Made by a program: the position numbers and the translations under genes. Positions 5,045 through 20,073 of a DNA stretch of 20,073 nucleotides are shown here, piece after piece. Origin of the DNA: a virus. Every line of letters begins with the position of its first letter. Within the stretch, counting starts at the first letter, position 1. The stretch lies in the IMG/VR virus record IMGVR_UViG_3300020385_000085, positions 1 through 20,073 of that record, one strand, 5' to 3'. Under the pieces are notes generated by a model that had not been told where the DNA came from, made no database searches, and was given only the letters and a program-made list of their open reading frames with translations.

Positions 5045-5503
5045 TTACTCTTTTTCGCCACCAAAAGTTACACGACTTTGCCTATCTTGAGTGATAGGCA
5101 TTGAGGGATGAGACTCCCTCATCAGGTTTTCATCGACGGCCTTCATTTGATTGCGGGTCTGGTCCCGATAATATTCAGTTCGTTCTTCTACCGTCTCTTG
5201 CGGAATGCGGCAAAGCATTAAGCCGCCACTTCCAATAACCCCAGCATGTTTTCCGTCTGAGATAACCGGGAACTCAGTTCCAGGATACTCGTCCGCTCGT
5301 ACCGGTTCCCAACCTTCTCTCATGCGAGAGTAAACGTTGTTCTGGTCCTCATCACCACGGATCGCAGTGCGAACCCAACGATGAAGGTAACCATGTGGTG
5401 CAGGCGGTGCATCTAACGTGCTGGGCGGAGCCCAAGGCTTCCGACGCGCAGCTTTTTCTCGTGTCTGCGTTTCACGCGGTGTACGTTTTTTAGAATCAGT
5501 CAT
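5045..5503 (-). CDS. Conserved phage head-region protein, 152 aa
   Basis: The N-terminus is basic and hydrophilic (TDSKKRTPRETQTREKAARR), followed by KPWAPPSTLDAPPAPHGYLH and RWVRTAIRGDEDQNNVYSRM. A core with EYPGTEFPVISDGKHAGVIG and SGGLMLCRIPQE follows, then a helical, charged C-terminus. The WxPPSxLDAPPAPxGYxxRWVRT...GWEPVRADEYP...GKHAGVIGSGGLML pattern is a conserved phage family placed between scaffold and capsid genes; its function is not known to me. Its ribosome site (AAGGAG) is made by the last codons of the scaffold gene. Co-expression with scaffold and capsid suggests a role in head assembly, which is inference. Confidence 0.75.
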   Translation of the reverse strand: MTDSKKRTPRETQTREKAARRKPWAPPSTLDAPPAPHGYLHRWVRTAIRGDEDQNNVYSRMREGWEPVRADEYPGTEFPVISDGKHAGVIGSGGLMLCRIPQETVEERTEYYRDQTRNQMKAVDENLMRESHPSMPITQDRQSRVTFGGEKE

Positions 5504-5509
5504 TTGTTT

Positions 5510-6469
5510 TTACTCCTTAACAAACTTTGCATACTCTTCGAGCGGAACACCAAGTTTCTTGGCGATTGCAACCTGAGATTGCGAAAGCTTGACTGTTCTG
5601 CGCCCCTTGGTTGACGAACGTGATGCCGTGGACTCAGCAGAGGCGACTCTGGGTTTAGCGGCTTTCTTGGGTTCTTCCTTCGTCGGCTGAACAGATTGTC
5701 CAAACCTCTGTGGGAAATCACCTTTGATACGTTTGTCGAGCTCAGTATAATACTCATCAGAGGTTGGGTCAAATCCTTCTTCTTCCACAAGTCTCCGGTG
5801 AATACCGAATGCAGCGTAGGTCATGGTATCGTCATTGCCGAACCAATCGTTACGCTCTGCCCAGGCTTGCGCCTTGGGATCTGGTTCTGGTGCAGCTTGC
5901 TGTGGAGCCTGCTGCGGGACCTGGGGAGCTTGATACTCCTCCGGCTCACGCTCCACACGAAGCTTGGCATCAGCGTGTTTGTCTTGATCGATAGTGATGC
6001 GGCTCACCATTTGCTGCGCTTCAAAGATACCGTCAGCATCATCGGCTTCGATAGCTGCCTTAAGTTTTGTCTTTGCCGCATCTAGGTCACGATCTAGACG
6101 ACCACCTAGTTCATCAACGTAAGACGCTTCACGACTACGAAGCTGTCCCTGCAAATCTTCGTTCTGCTTTTTAACCGCTTCTGCATATTGCAGAGCAGCC
6201 TCACGCTGTCGCTCTTCTTCACGAAACTTAGCTGTCAGCTTTCGGATTCGGCGTTGAACACTTTCTGAGTACTCAGCAAGCTCCTCCTCGCTCTTCTCCG
6301 GTTCAGCAGAAGCTTCTTGAGGCTGGGCTGACGCTTCTTCCTCAACAGATTCCTTCGGTTGCTCGGACGAAACTTCATCTTCCGACTCCTGTTCCTCTAC
6401 AGCATCAACCTCTTCAGACGTGCTCTCGTCCTCGATTTCGATGATGTGCTCTTCCTGATCTTCTTGCAT
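5510..6469 (-). CDS. Capsid scaffolding protein, 319 aa
   Basis: This is a predicted internal scaffold that guides capsid assembly and is then lost. The first ~75 residues are extremely acidic (runs of Glu/Ser/Gln such as EEVDAVEEQESEDEVSSEQP). A long charged coiled-coil region follows (about 70-180, with SVQRRIRKLTAKFREEERQR), then a Pro/Gln linker around 185-205. The C-terminus is basic, ending RTVKLSQSQVAIAKKLGVPL then EEYAKFVKE. Acid N-terminus, central coil and a small basic helical C-terminus that can bind coat protein is the normal scaffold plan. It lies two genes upstream of the capsid gene, with an AGGAG site. Its last codons (AAG GAG TAA) double as the ribosome site of the next gene. 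Confidence 0.82.
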   Translation of the reverse strand: MQEDQEEHIIEIEDESTSEEVDAVEEQESEDEVSSEQPKESVEEEASAQPQEASAEPEKSEEELAEYSESVQRRIRKLTAKFREEERQREAALQYAEAVKKQNEDLQGQLRSREASYVDELGGRLDRDLDAAKTKLKAAIEADDADGIFEAQQMVSRITIDQDKHADAKLRVEREPEEYQAPQVPQQAPQQAAPEPDPKAQAWAERNDWFGNDDTMTYAAFGIHRRLVEEEGFDPTSDEYYTELDKRIKGDFPQRFGQSVQPTKEEPKKAAKPRVASAESTASRSSTKGRRTVKLSQSQVAIAKKLGVPLEEYAKFVKE

Positions 6470-6478
6470 TTTAGTCTC

Positions 6479-6892
6479 CTATAGCACTACGTCTTCAGGG
6501 TTCATGATAGTGGCGATAACTTCGTCATCATTGATAATGCGAACCTCCCCGCCGTCTAATTTGAAGCGCGAACCAGCGTATCGGCCGATACAAATCCAGT
6601 CGCCTTCTTTGCACCACGGCTCACCCTGTTCGCCAAACTTGTCGGGGTCTTTGTAAGCCAGTGGTCCAATCTTAACCACGTAAGCAACAACTGTTGCTAA
6701 CGCCTCTCGATCTTTAGTGTCGTCAGGAATGATGACACCTCCGTGGGTTTTTTCTCGCCCCTTGTAGGGCATAACCAATATACGCCACCCTGTCGGCTGG
6801 GGTATACGTGCCATCGCGTCTTCTTCGGAAGCGCGTTGTGCCGCTTCTTCTTGCACTTTCACATAGTCAGGTAAAATTAGTCCGCTACTCAT
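6479..6892 (-). CDS. GroES-like co-chaperonin, 137 aa
   Basis: This is a predicted phage version of the GroES/Cpn10 lid that works with the host GroEL chamber to fold phage proteins, most likely the capsid protein. The core begins PTGWRILVMPYKGREKTHGG and continues VIIPDDTKDREALATVVAYV, then VKIGP. It ends with CKEGDWICIGRYAGSRFKLD, GGEVRIINDDEVIA and TIMNPEDVVL. The strand RILVMP, the flexible loop KGREKTHGGVIIPD and the closing IINDDEVIATI match the GroES beta-barrel. VII would be the hydrophobic tripeptide that contacts GroEL. It is longer than the usual ~97 aa because of an N-terminal ~34-residue extension. The start at 6892 has a GAGGAAG site; a longer frame to 7030 lacks one. It overlaps the upstream gene by 8 bases. 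Confidence 0.85.
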   Translation of the reverse strand: MSSGLILPDYVKVQEEAAQRASEEDAMARIPQPTGWRILVMPYKGREKTHGGVIIPDDTKDREALATVVAYVVKIGPLAYKDPDKFGEQGEPWCKEGDWICIGRYAGSRFKLDGGEVRIINDDEVIATIMNPEDVVL

Positions 6893-7085
6893 TGTCTTCC
6901 TCATCATATTTTCTAAGCAGAGTCGATATCTCTTCAACAGCAAACGAAAGACCCTGGATCTCGCCCACCATTGATCGGTACTGTTCCAGGTTTGAAACAG
7001 AGCCGCTAGTAACCGCCACCGATATATCATCGATGCGCTGTTCTAGATTACGTTTATATTTGGAAAGAAACTCTAATATTCTCAA
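6885..7085 (-). CDS. Small helical phage protein, 66 aa
   Basis: This is a short, mostly helical protein, probably a coiled coil: EFLSKYKRNLEQRIDDISVA, then SVSNLEQYRSMVGEIQGLSF, then AVEEISTLLRKYDEED. It uses a TTG start that overlaps the upstream TGA by four bases (TTGA), with a GGGGAT stretch upstream. The only internal ATG would remove the first ~38 residues. The EYRxxxGEIQGLxxAxxxIxxLL pattern occurs in small proteins of other phages located between portal and scaffold genes; the function is unknown. It may help head assembly. Confidence 0.65.
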   Translation of the reverse strand: MRILEFLSKYKRNLEQRIDDISVAVTSGSVSNLEQYRSMVGEIQGLSFAVEEISTLLRKYDEEDNE

Positions 7086-18336: not shown

Positions 18337-18738
18337 CTATTCGCTATCCGCAAGCCGCAAGATGCAAGACACGCAAGACGCAAGGCTCGTGCCGTGAAAC
18401 ACGGGGCTACATTCAGGGTCTGATAACCCGCAAGACGCAAGGCGCAAGGCTTTTCCCCCTTCAAATAAAAATAGATCGCCCTTCGAGGGGCGTGATACTA
18501 GGATAAAACTAATACCGCCAGCCGCAGAATAAGCCATATTCCACGCAATTTGGGATGGTCTTATGTTTACCGTGTTAGCTTTTGCTATTTTTAACTCAAC
18601 CCAAACGGCAACCCCGTCATGCACCAGATGCACATCAGGAACGCCCGACCCCGCACGGTTTTCAATCCTTGTCGTGTGGGTTTTCGGTGGTAAGTTCTGC
18701 CTCAATCGCTTCCACAGGTTTTGTTCTGGTTTCGACAT
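18337..18738 (-). CDS. VRR-NUC-type PD-(D/E)XK nuclease, 133 aa
   Basis: This is a predicted small metal-dependent DNA nuclease. The start at 18738 (MSKPEQNLWKRLRQNL) has a GAGG site 6 bases upstream and matches the conserved S.PE..LW..L opening; the longer frame to 18837 is not needed. The catalytic core is RIENRAGSGVPDVHLVHDGV with Glu 26 and Asp 35, then VWVELKIA with Glu 48 and Lys 50, then RPSQIAW with Gln 62, then GGISFILVSRPSKGDLFLF. This is the VRR-NUC pattern. It overlaps the end of the TerS gene by 77 bases, so the two are co-expressed. It may act in packaging or recombination. Its last ~35 residues (LRLASCGL, later SLASCVSCILRLADSE) are written by CGCAAG-type repeats and may be a repeat-derived tail. 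Confidence 0.82.
   Translation of the reverse strand: MSKPEQNLWKRLRQNLPPKTHTTRIENRAGSGVPDVHLVHDGVAVWVELKIAKANTVNIRPSQIAWNMAYSAAGGISFILVSRPSKGDLFLFEGGKALRLASCGLSDPECSPVFHGTSLASCVSCILRLADSE
18349..18384 (+). repeat. CGCAAG repeat cluster B
   Basis: CGCAAG begins at 18349, 18356, 18372 and 18379, with a TGCAAG variant at 18363; steps are 7, 7, 9 and 7 bases. It lies within the last codons of the nuclease gene and encodes SLASCVSCILRLAD on the minus strand. Confidence 0.8.
18429..18448 (+). repeat. CGCAAG repeat cluster C
   Basis: Three perfect copies at 18429, 18436 and 18443 have an exact 7-base period (CGCAAGA CGCAAGG CGCAAGG). On the minus strand they encode the ALRLASCG part of the nuclease. 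A small CCGTG-aaa-CACGG hairpin (18392-18404) lies between this cluster and cluster B. Confidence 0.8.
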
Positions 18739-19279
18739 CCGTCGCCTCGCTATATTCGCCCTCGATAAATGCCGCAGGATATTTGTCTTGCAGCTTTGCC
18801 AGCCTCGCTGTGATTTCTTCGCGGCTGAGTTCATCATACTTATGCACGTTGGTTGTCTCGCGCCTGTCGATAGTCAGGCCACCAAGTGATGAGCGGATTT
18901 TCTCTGCGTTAATTGCAGCGGAAAACTGTCCCGCCTCTTCCGCGTTGTGGGATAATTCGTCGAAGCGTTTAAGCTGGTTGATCAGCGTCACCCCATATTT
19001 GCGCTCCCGTGCCTCGCGTTCTTCAGCGATATACTCGACCACCAGCGGGAAGTCTCGCCCGTTCAAAAGTTTTGAGGCTTGAACGTTGGCACTGTCTTCA
19101 GCATAACCAGCCTTGCGCGCGCACTCGGCATTTGAAAAACGCCCCTCAATGTAGTGCCTTGCAAATTCCTTTTGGCGATTGGTCAATCGGCGGGTCGGTT
19201 CGGCTGTTTCGATAGCTGTTTTGCTGTCAGTTTTCTCTGTTTTTTCAGTCAAGTTTCCGCTCCAATAGGCTTTTCTCAT
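18662..19279 (-). CDS. terS: Terminase small subunit, 205 aa
   Basis: This is the DNA-recognition part of the packaging motor. The core is RRLTNRQKEFARHYIEGRFS then NAECARKAGYAEDSANVQAS, followed by KLLNGRDFPLVVEYIAEERE. This is the Terminase_2-type helix-turn-helix (LT.RQ..F...Y......A..A...AGYS....V.A..LL....V..YI). An oligomerisation region follows (NQLKRFDELSHNAEEAGQFS) with SSLGGLTIDRRET, and the C-terminal tail is acidic. No ribosome site is seen before the ATG at 19279; a TTG nine codons later (19252) has GGAG 7 bases upstream and may be the real start. It is unusually far from terL (about 2.6 kb) with opposite-strand genes between them, and it overlaps the nuclease gene. Confidence 0.85.
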   Translation of the reverse strand: MRKAYWSGNLTEKTEKTDSKTAIETAEPTRRLTNRQKEFARHYIEGRFSNAECARKAGYAEDSANVQASKLLNGRDFPLVVEYIAEEREARERKYGVTLINQLKRFDELSHNAEEAGQFSAAINAEKIRSSLGGLTIDRRETTNVHKYDELSREEITARLAKLQDKYPAAFIEGEYSEATDVETRTKPVEAIEAELTTENPHDKD

Positions 19280-19609
19280 GAGATATATACATTAAAAAAT
19301 CAAAAATCATAAGTCCCGACAACGTTAAAAAAGGTCAAAATATGCGTTTGAAGTGTTACAACGTAACAGAAGTGTTACAGCTAGACCCTCTGTAAGGCGC
19401 ATAAAACCTAGCTTTTTGTGATGCTGTAACAGTGTAACACTTGTAACACCTATATTCTGCGAAGTTTTCCAAAAACTTTTTTCGTGGGAGATTACTACTG
19501 TTACAACGGTCATTTTAGTGCTTTTTTCCCTGACAGTTTTATGCTACAAAATAGGGGTATCCCATGTGGTTTGGGACACACGATTATAACAGATTACAGG
19601 AGTTTATCT
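19280..19609. other. Divergent intergenic region, AT-rich
   Basis: These 330 bases between divergent genes contain no ORF I can support. Next to terS there is an AT-rich stretch with a TATATAT. The TGTTAC repeats follow (19354-19504). Nearer the plus-strand gene is an extended -10-like TGC-TACAAA (19542-19550) without a good -35, and a TCCCA/TGGGA inverted repeat around 19560-19580. The region may hold a promoter pair, an operator array, a replication origin or a packaging site. Confidence 0.6.
19354..19504. repeat. Seven TGTTAC/GTAACA sites in two clusters
   Basis: TGTTAC occurs at 19354, 19374 and 19499; its complement GTAACA begins at 19363, 19426, 19434 and 19443. The first two sites form a TGTTAC-aac-GTAACA palindrome. 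The second cluster has three same-direction copies spaced 8-9 bases. This looks like a binding-site array for a phage repressor or replication/packaging protein. Confidence 0.75.
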
Positions 19610-20065
19610 ATGTCGTTTGAAATGAAACTAAGTAATGGGGTAGCTACTATCACCCATGAATACAAAACCAAAGCGCACTGCTATCGCGCTTTTATGGTCG
19701 AGCATCTTATGCGTAACAATAAGGTATTTGAAACCTGTGAACAGGAAGACTTGCAGGATGCGTTTCAGGAACTGATCCTGACCAACCGCACCAAGATCCG
19801 AGTTCCGCGTCACAAGGATGCTGACTTGTATATGTTAAAGCCTGTCCTTTACAACATCGAGATTACTGACCTCGACGAATCTGCCCAGAAATGGGGTCAC
19901 GACTTTACGTTTTATTTTTCGTTCAGCGGAATGGGTGAGCATTGGAGTGAGGAAATTAGCCCCGCCGATTTTCGCTTCAAGTTGCTGCAATCGATTGGCA
20001 ACTGCGATGGCGAAGATTTAATGGAGCGCATTGAGATTGCATCTAGTTATGAGGAGACTTTTTAA
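19610..20065 (+). CDS. Phage protein of unknown function, 151 aa
   Basis: The start at 19610 is preferred because it has ACAGGAG 8 bases upstream and a leader (GGAGTTTATC) like the one before the 57-aa and GP88-like genes; a longer frame from 19484 runs through the repeat region. The protein is soluble and charged: MSFEMKLSNGVATITHEYKT, HCYRAFMVEHLMRNNKVFET, KPVLYNIEITDLDESAQKWG, HDFTFYFSFSGMGEHWSEEI, and the C-terminus LMERIEIASSYEETF. It alternates helices and strands with no recognised motif. It is rightward and probably early. A further gene starts one base after its stop. Confidence 0.75.
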   Translation: MSFEMKLSNGVATITHEYKTKAHCYRAFMVEHLMRNNKVFETCEQEDLQDAFQELILTNRTKIRVPRHKDADLYMLKPVLYNIEITDLDESAQKWGHDFTFYFSFSGMGEHWSEEISPADFRFKLLQSIGNCDGEDLMERIEIASSYEETF

Positions 20066-20066
20066 A

Positions 20067-20073
20067 ATGGCTA
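20067..20073 (+). CDS. Start of next gene (two codons)
   Basis: An ATG at 20067 with a GAGGAG site 10 bases upstream begins Met-Ala and runs off the right edge. It follows the previous stop by one base, so it is very likely the next gene of the same transcript. Nothing can be said about its product. Confidence 0.5.

Follow-up and report, generated by a model that had tools for sequence, protein, structure and literature searches.

The window, a stretch of viral DNA of 20,073 bp that was analysed as a whole, overlaps contig L062 (G001, 37,619 bp) at both of its ends by exactly 77 identical bases, positions 1–77 and 37543–37619 of the contig being shared with positions 19997–20073 and 1–77 of the window. 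Together they close into a circle of ~57.5 kb, close in size to the genome of HTVC027P (57,595 bp). This phage and HTVC023P, both Pelagibacter phages, are related to the present one, with identities of 63% and 55%, respectively, in TerL and of 37% and 32% in TerS. The terS gene (18662–19279, minus strand) encodes a small terminase (Terminase_2), the DNA-binding domain of which is predicted to have the SF6/SPP1 TerS fold. Its 3′ end is overlapped by a small nuclease-like gene of PHROG 2165 (18337–18837, minus strand), and the two are presumably on one transcript; a homologue of the nuclease-like gene has a weak match to Hjc. In several relatives, this nuclease-like gene, itself downstream of terS, is followed by GC-rich CCCGACC/GGGTCGG repeats (L166 6696–6860 and L038 about 6778–6910). 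A gene for a protein of 151 amino acids (19610–20065, plus strand) is divergent from terS; some relatives have different genes in its place although the repeat array, located between the two, is retained.

This array consists of seven TGTTAC/GTAACA hexamers within 151 bp, between the start of terS (19279) and that of the 151-aa gene (19610). The terS-proximal group of three units (19354–19378) comprises TGTTAC at 19354 (+), GTAACA at 19363 (−) and TGTTAC at 19373 (+), and the second group of three (19426–19448) comprises GTAACA at 19426, 19434 and 19443, all on the minus strand. The seventh unit, TGTTAC at 19499–19504 (+), is an outlying one, and an A/T-rich tract (CCAAAAACTTTTTTCG, 19458–19495) is located between it and the second group; similar AAAAAnTTTTTGAAAA tracts adjoin the array in relatives. 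A preliminary description of this DNA had reported seven hexamers in about 150 bases, forming two tight groups in the divergent region between terS and the 151-aa gene, and these positions are confirmed exactly. The clustering is far above chance: against the seven copies observed, the densest TGTTAC/GTAACA cluster per 151 bp reaches at most four when the window is shuffled 1000 times with its dinucleotides preserved, and the maximum for any hexamer in 151 bp is five in 200 such shuffles. The array is the sole dense cluster of the hexamer in the ~57.5-kb genome (the window plus the overlapping contig), in which the octamer GTGTTACA has four copies in the array and one elsewhere. The preliminary description also emphasized that the hexamers occur in both orientations. 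They do, but TGTWACA is near-palindromic, and therefore the orientation of the bare hexamer carries little weight. Outside the array, just upstream of the 151-aa gene, is an inverted repeat (GGTATCCCATGTGGTTTGGGACACA, 19556–19580) with an 8-bp stem and a 7-base loop, possibly an operator or a hairpin.

All seven copies are present in L001–L008, where both three-unit groups are identical to those of the window and the outlying unit is kept. In the alignment of the window with L008, the TerS of which is 82% identical, 42 of the 42 hexamer columns are unchanged, as compared with 86 of the 109 spacer columns (Fisher P = 6e-4). The window and its close relatives are thus characterized by one site in multiple copies with drifting spacers, as expected of an operator array. 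More distant relatives with a TerS about 64% identical (L009, L010 and L012) have 8–9 copies in a different order, and in L009–L012 a single unit copy past the A/T-rich tract is the counterpart of the outlying seventh unit of the window. The far-side gene of L010 and L012 differs from the 151-aa gene. Since the array persists beside terS while the gene on the far side changes, the array goes with terS rather than with its 151-aa neighbour. A second search with TerS provided 80 loci, partly overlapping the first set of relatives, and the array is present in nearly all of them. Conservation of the repeats in related phages, which the preliminary description had listed as a check of its proposal, is accordingly borne out both in the close relatives and in this broader set.

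In the further TerS relatives, the unit takes the form of a constant CACTT preceded by a lineage-specific 5-mer (nnnnnCACTT). The types found are CGTTA, TGGTA, TATA-type, GGGAA, CGTGA, CGTCC, CGTAC, CGTGG and CGTAA, with CATGA in a further group. The 5-mer is mostly uniform within one array and changes in step over the copies, giving about ten forms. As an exception, L151, L157 and L163 have GGGAC in the left units and another 5-mer in the right units, and single unit copies deviate from the array consensus in other relatives, too. The nnnnnCACTT unit is directional: left units point one way and right units the opposite way, facing each other across a spacer, and in most lineages the left units are reverse complements of the right ones. 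The two three-unit groups of the window correspond to these left and right groups. In most distinct arrays, the right units are spaced by 11–12 (or 21) bp, then 9–10 bp, then 20 bp, and therefore the units lie on one helix face.

The unit can change while TerS remains almost the same. L121 and L114 are only one residue apart in TerS (204 of 205 residues identical), although their array units are different. The array block of ~117 bp in L121 is 61% identical to that of L114 and 84% identical to that of L137, which has TATA-type units, whereas the flanks and terS of L121 follow the reverse pattern, being close to those of L114 (92–97% for the flanks) and less like those of L137. A comparable change of units is found between L044 and L101, in which the DNA-binding domain of TerS is identical. 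The array is therefore exchanged as a cassette of ~117 bp without change in the DNA-binding domain of TerS; a double misassembly within 250 bp behind the swap in L121 is possible but unlikely. Since different units accompany near-identical TerS proteins, TerS does not read the 5-mer. A sequence-specific (cos-type) TerS site would involve recognition residues that change with the site, and neither of the two pairs shows such a change. The proposal of the preliminary description that the repeats are a packaging site read by TerS is contradicted by L121 and L114 as far as the variable half of the unit is concerned.

The geometry of the array relative to TATATA elements is also fixed. The sole TATATA of the 20-kb window (19284–19289) is located just before terS and would serve as a −10-like promoter element. 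TATATA is infrequent in several of these genomes, no more than about one copy being expected in several of the stretches, and the intergenic copies of L177, L181 and the window are located at the array. Among 48 distinct arrays, the last right unit is 68–71 bp (typically 69 bp) from the terS-side TATATA in 42, 80–81 bp in three, and 51–52 bp in three, for which an overlapping A/T run was picked first as TATATA. On the other side, the left TATATA is 54–55 bp from the first left unit in 30 of the 33 measurable arrays and 62–63 bp in three. In the relatives, the distances to the putative promoter elements are fixed and helically consistent, as in an operator array. In the clade of the window, the terS-side TATATA of L002 is separated from the unit by 71 bp, and a variant of TATATA is found at 69 bp in L008. 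The early side lacks a clear TATATA in this clade, and therefore the layout with two promoters is a property of the relatives. A scan of the window region for sigma-70 promoters gave no matches above chance. In L166 and L153, the array and TATATA are parted from terS by an inserted ORF (156 aa in L166, at 5415–5885; from about 185 in L153), which by eye resembles a GIY-YIG-type endonuclease. The array of these two relatives is >450 bp from terS and its distance to TATATA stays as usual, a retention across the insertion that fits a promoter-linked element.

The fixed distances to two likely −10 elements, the helical phasing and the fact that array and promoter stay together point to a regulator that binds cooperatively between divergent promoters. 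With a probability that we put at about even, the array serves as a control element of regulation, in which helically phased putative sites between divergent transcription units are cooperatively bound by a sequence-specific regulator. One of the flanking transcription units would comprise terS and the nuclease-like gene, and the other would be that of the early genes. A sequence-specific DNA-binding protein would bind the array cooperatively on one helix face, and the bound regulator would turn both promoters up or down. In this scheme, TATATA is taken as the −10 element, and the ligand as a transcription regulator encoded by the phage. Among the roles that had been suggested in advance for the repeats, namely an operator, an origin and a packaging site read by TerS, the operator fits best because of the fixed TATATA distances and because the array stays with TATATA in L166 and L153. 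The sigma-70 scan and the lack of a clear early-side TATATA in the clade of the window count against the operator, as do the relatives L151, L157 and L163, in which left and right groups have different 5-mers, since one ligand may then not bind both groups. A regulator array and a packaging function could also share the region upstream of terS.

Packaging is indeed the basis of the first alternative, which is rather improbable on the whole, namely that the locus is a pac region of the SPP1/SF6 type, where a TerS ring binds DNA mainly by its shape, TerL cuts nearby and the terS promoter is self-repressed. The repeats would then help to shape the DNA without being read base by base. A TerS of the SPP1/SF6 fold is encoded beside the region (Foldseek E 0.07, prob 1.00, for the domain only), and its DNA-binding domain best matches SF6/SPP1 TerS, with TM scores of 0.88 for 4zc3 and 0.83 for 2cmp normalised by the target, in a model that is confident only for residues about 30–95 and has a mean pLDDT of 64 as a whole. 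DNA binding by SF6 TerS shows little sequence specificity, and the protein is a repressor of its own operon; the pac site of SPP1 overlaps with the promoter of terS, and SPP1 TerS likewise represses its operon (PMC4737164; PMC6316719). The phasing of about 10 bp would suit helix-turn-helix motifs one helical turn apart on the TerS ring, the circle formed by window and contig runs across the array, and the cassette swap is tolerated with an unchanged TerS. On the other hand, binding by shape leaves the in-step change of the 5-mer in all copies unexplained, in L166 and L153 a distance of >450 bp separates the array from terS, to which it is adjacent in most relatives, and the periodicity of the A/T tract is not above that of shuffles. 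Contig ends are found near the array in 3 of 62 cases as against 3.6 expected, which is weak evidence, because pac phages need not show an excess.

As compared with known SPP1/SF6 pac regions, in which the promoters PL1 and PL2 precede gene 1 (terS), the present locus is similar in that repeats and putative promoters are placed directly before terS, in the predicted fold of the TerS DNA-binding domain, and in that TerS is tolerant of different repeats. It differs in that its repeats are short, strictly spaced and changed in step between phages, and in that they form an exchangeable cassette separable from terS by an inserted gene. In HTVC023P, TAGGAA occurs eight times upstream of a related terS (L065 8424–8970), a similar placement, although the sequence is unrelated and does not contain the CACTT half. 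In HTVC027P, the region of about 2.4 kb that precedes terS contains GCTTGA 14 times (L064 6551–8990).

A replication origin, in which the repeats would be iterons for a phage initiator and the adjoining A/T-rich tract the unwinding element, is unlikely. The genome has one array, and the repeats are next to an A/T-rich region as in an iteron origin, the tract being a putative site of unwinding; SPP1 origins consist of direct repeats and an A/T-rich unwinding element (PMC6316719). PLE satellites show modular exchange of iterons and initiator (PMC8263062). These clustered direct repeats with an A/T-rich neighbour, in SPP1 oriL and oriR and in the PLE satellite ori with RepA, resemble the present array, as does the modular exchange of the repeat type in the PLE ori. 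In contrast to them, the array is tied to terS, the replication genes being about 10 kb off, and no initiator that tracks the 5-mer was found among the few protein families checked for covariation. Near the array, low values of the cumulative GC skew are found, but the skew tracks gene direction. The fixed distance to TATATA and the start codon, kept upon gene insertion, better suits a promoter.

It is very improbable that the array acts in cis with no protein reader, left and right units pairing as hairpins of RNA or extruded DNA and covarying to keep the pairing. The left units are reverse complements of the right units in most lineages and the array block is exchangeable without a change in TerS, but the window region folds no better than usual (z = −0.99), the left units number two to three as compared with four on the right, and in L151, L157 and L163 left and right units mismatch, yet the right units agree with each other; a search of the window region against Rfam gave no match. 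A host DNA-binding protein as the ligand, with array types following host species, has the slimmest prospect, since the near-identical phages L121 and L114 would need different hosts and so many unit types would be unusual for one host protein family, although none of the tested phage proteins tracks the 5-mer.

For the regulator favoured here, several phage proteins other than TerS were considered as the reader of the 5-mer. A conserved RHH-like protein encoded near the replication genes was rejected, since its putative DNA-binding strand, SVAV in most cases and always preceded by K or R, is nearly invariant across unit types. A second RHH-like protein (L069 4260–4574) is confined to the close relatives of the window. 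The Cro/C1-type protein p66 (HTH_3, E 1.7e-9) varies at the 434-type specificity positions, but one recognition segment (IGTSTIENYERRKI) accompanies CATGA, CGTAA and CGTGG arrays, and p66 is absent from the TATA lineages; L146, which stands for one of these three array types, may be chimeric owing to the assembly. Another candidate reader of the array is a small CxxCxGxG zinc protein, present in most lineages and fast-diverging. TerS or the RHH-like protein could still contact the constant CACTT half.

Some further differences have been observed around the array. When L036/L146 is compared with L020/L151 and L034/L144, the early genes of L036 are L020-like and its array and terS are L034-like, so that L036 is a natural mosaic or an assembly chimera. 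A cytosine-methyltransferase gene (PF00145; L114 2032–2790) and a second methyltransferase-like ORF (L114 667–1614) are located near the array, and the latter is shortened in L121 (880–1239) relative to L114. The cytosine-methyltransferase genes of L020 (2207–3250) and L030 (1522–2625) are the same at the start and only 62% identical over their whole length, a pattern suggestive of an exchange of the part for target recognition.

Multi-site control regions are already known. The sites of phi29 protein p4, located between the divergent promoters A2b and A3, belong to an early/late switch region. The present array is similar to this switch in having putative sites between likely divergent promoters, several helical turns upstream of a putative −10 element and on one helix face, and differs from it in having six or more short units per array with many spelling variants. 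No description of an array in uncultured marine phages that combines one constant and one variable half-site with in-step switching and cassette exchange was found in a limited search of the open literature.

Collectively, what began as a guess from one phage has become a rule over many uncultured marine phages, consisting of fixed geometry, a constant and a variable half-site, and exchange as a cassette. This rule is a computational handle on the organization of the intergenic region between the early genes and terS in this phage group, and it frames a clear search for the putative reader protein. The array is probably a docking site for a phage control protein, and position next to terS is by itself no sufficient ground for regarding repeats as a packaging site that TerS reads. 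It is further conceivable, although somewhat improbable, that these marine phages carry an exchangeable specificity cassette of ~120 bp, composed of a constant half-site and a 5-mer that switches simultaneously in all copies, with a fast-diverging putative reader. If so, a single phage family would be divided by the cassette into groups of regulation or compatibility, akin to the immunity groups known from temperate phages, although the present phages are apparently lytic, and parasites or competitors targeting the array might perhaps drive the switching.
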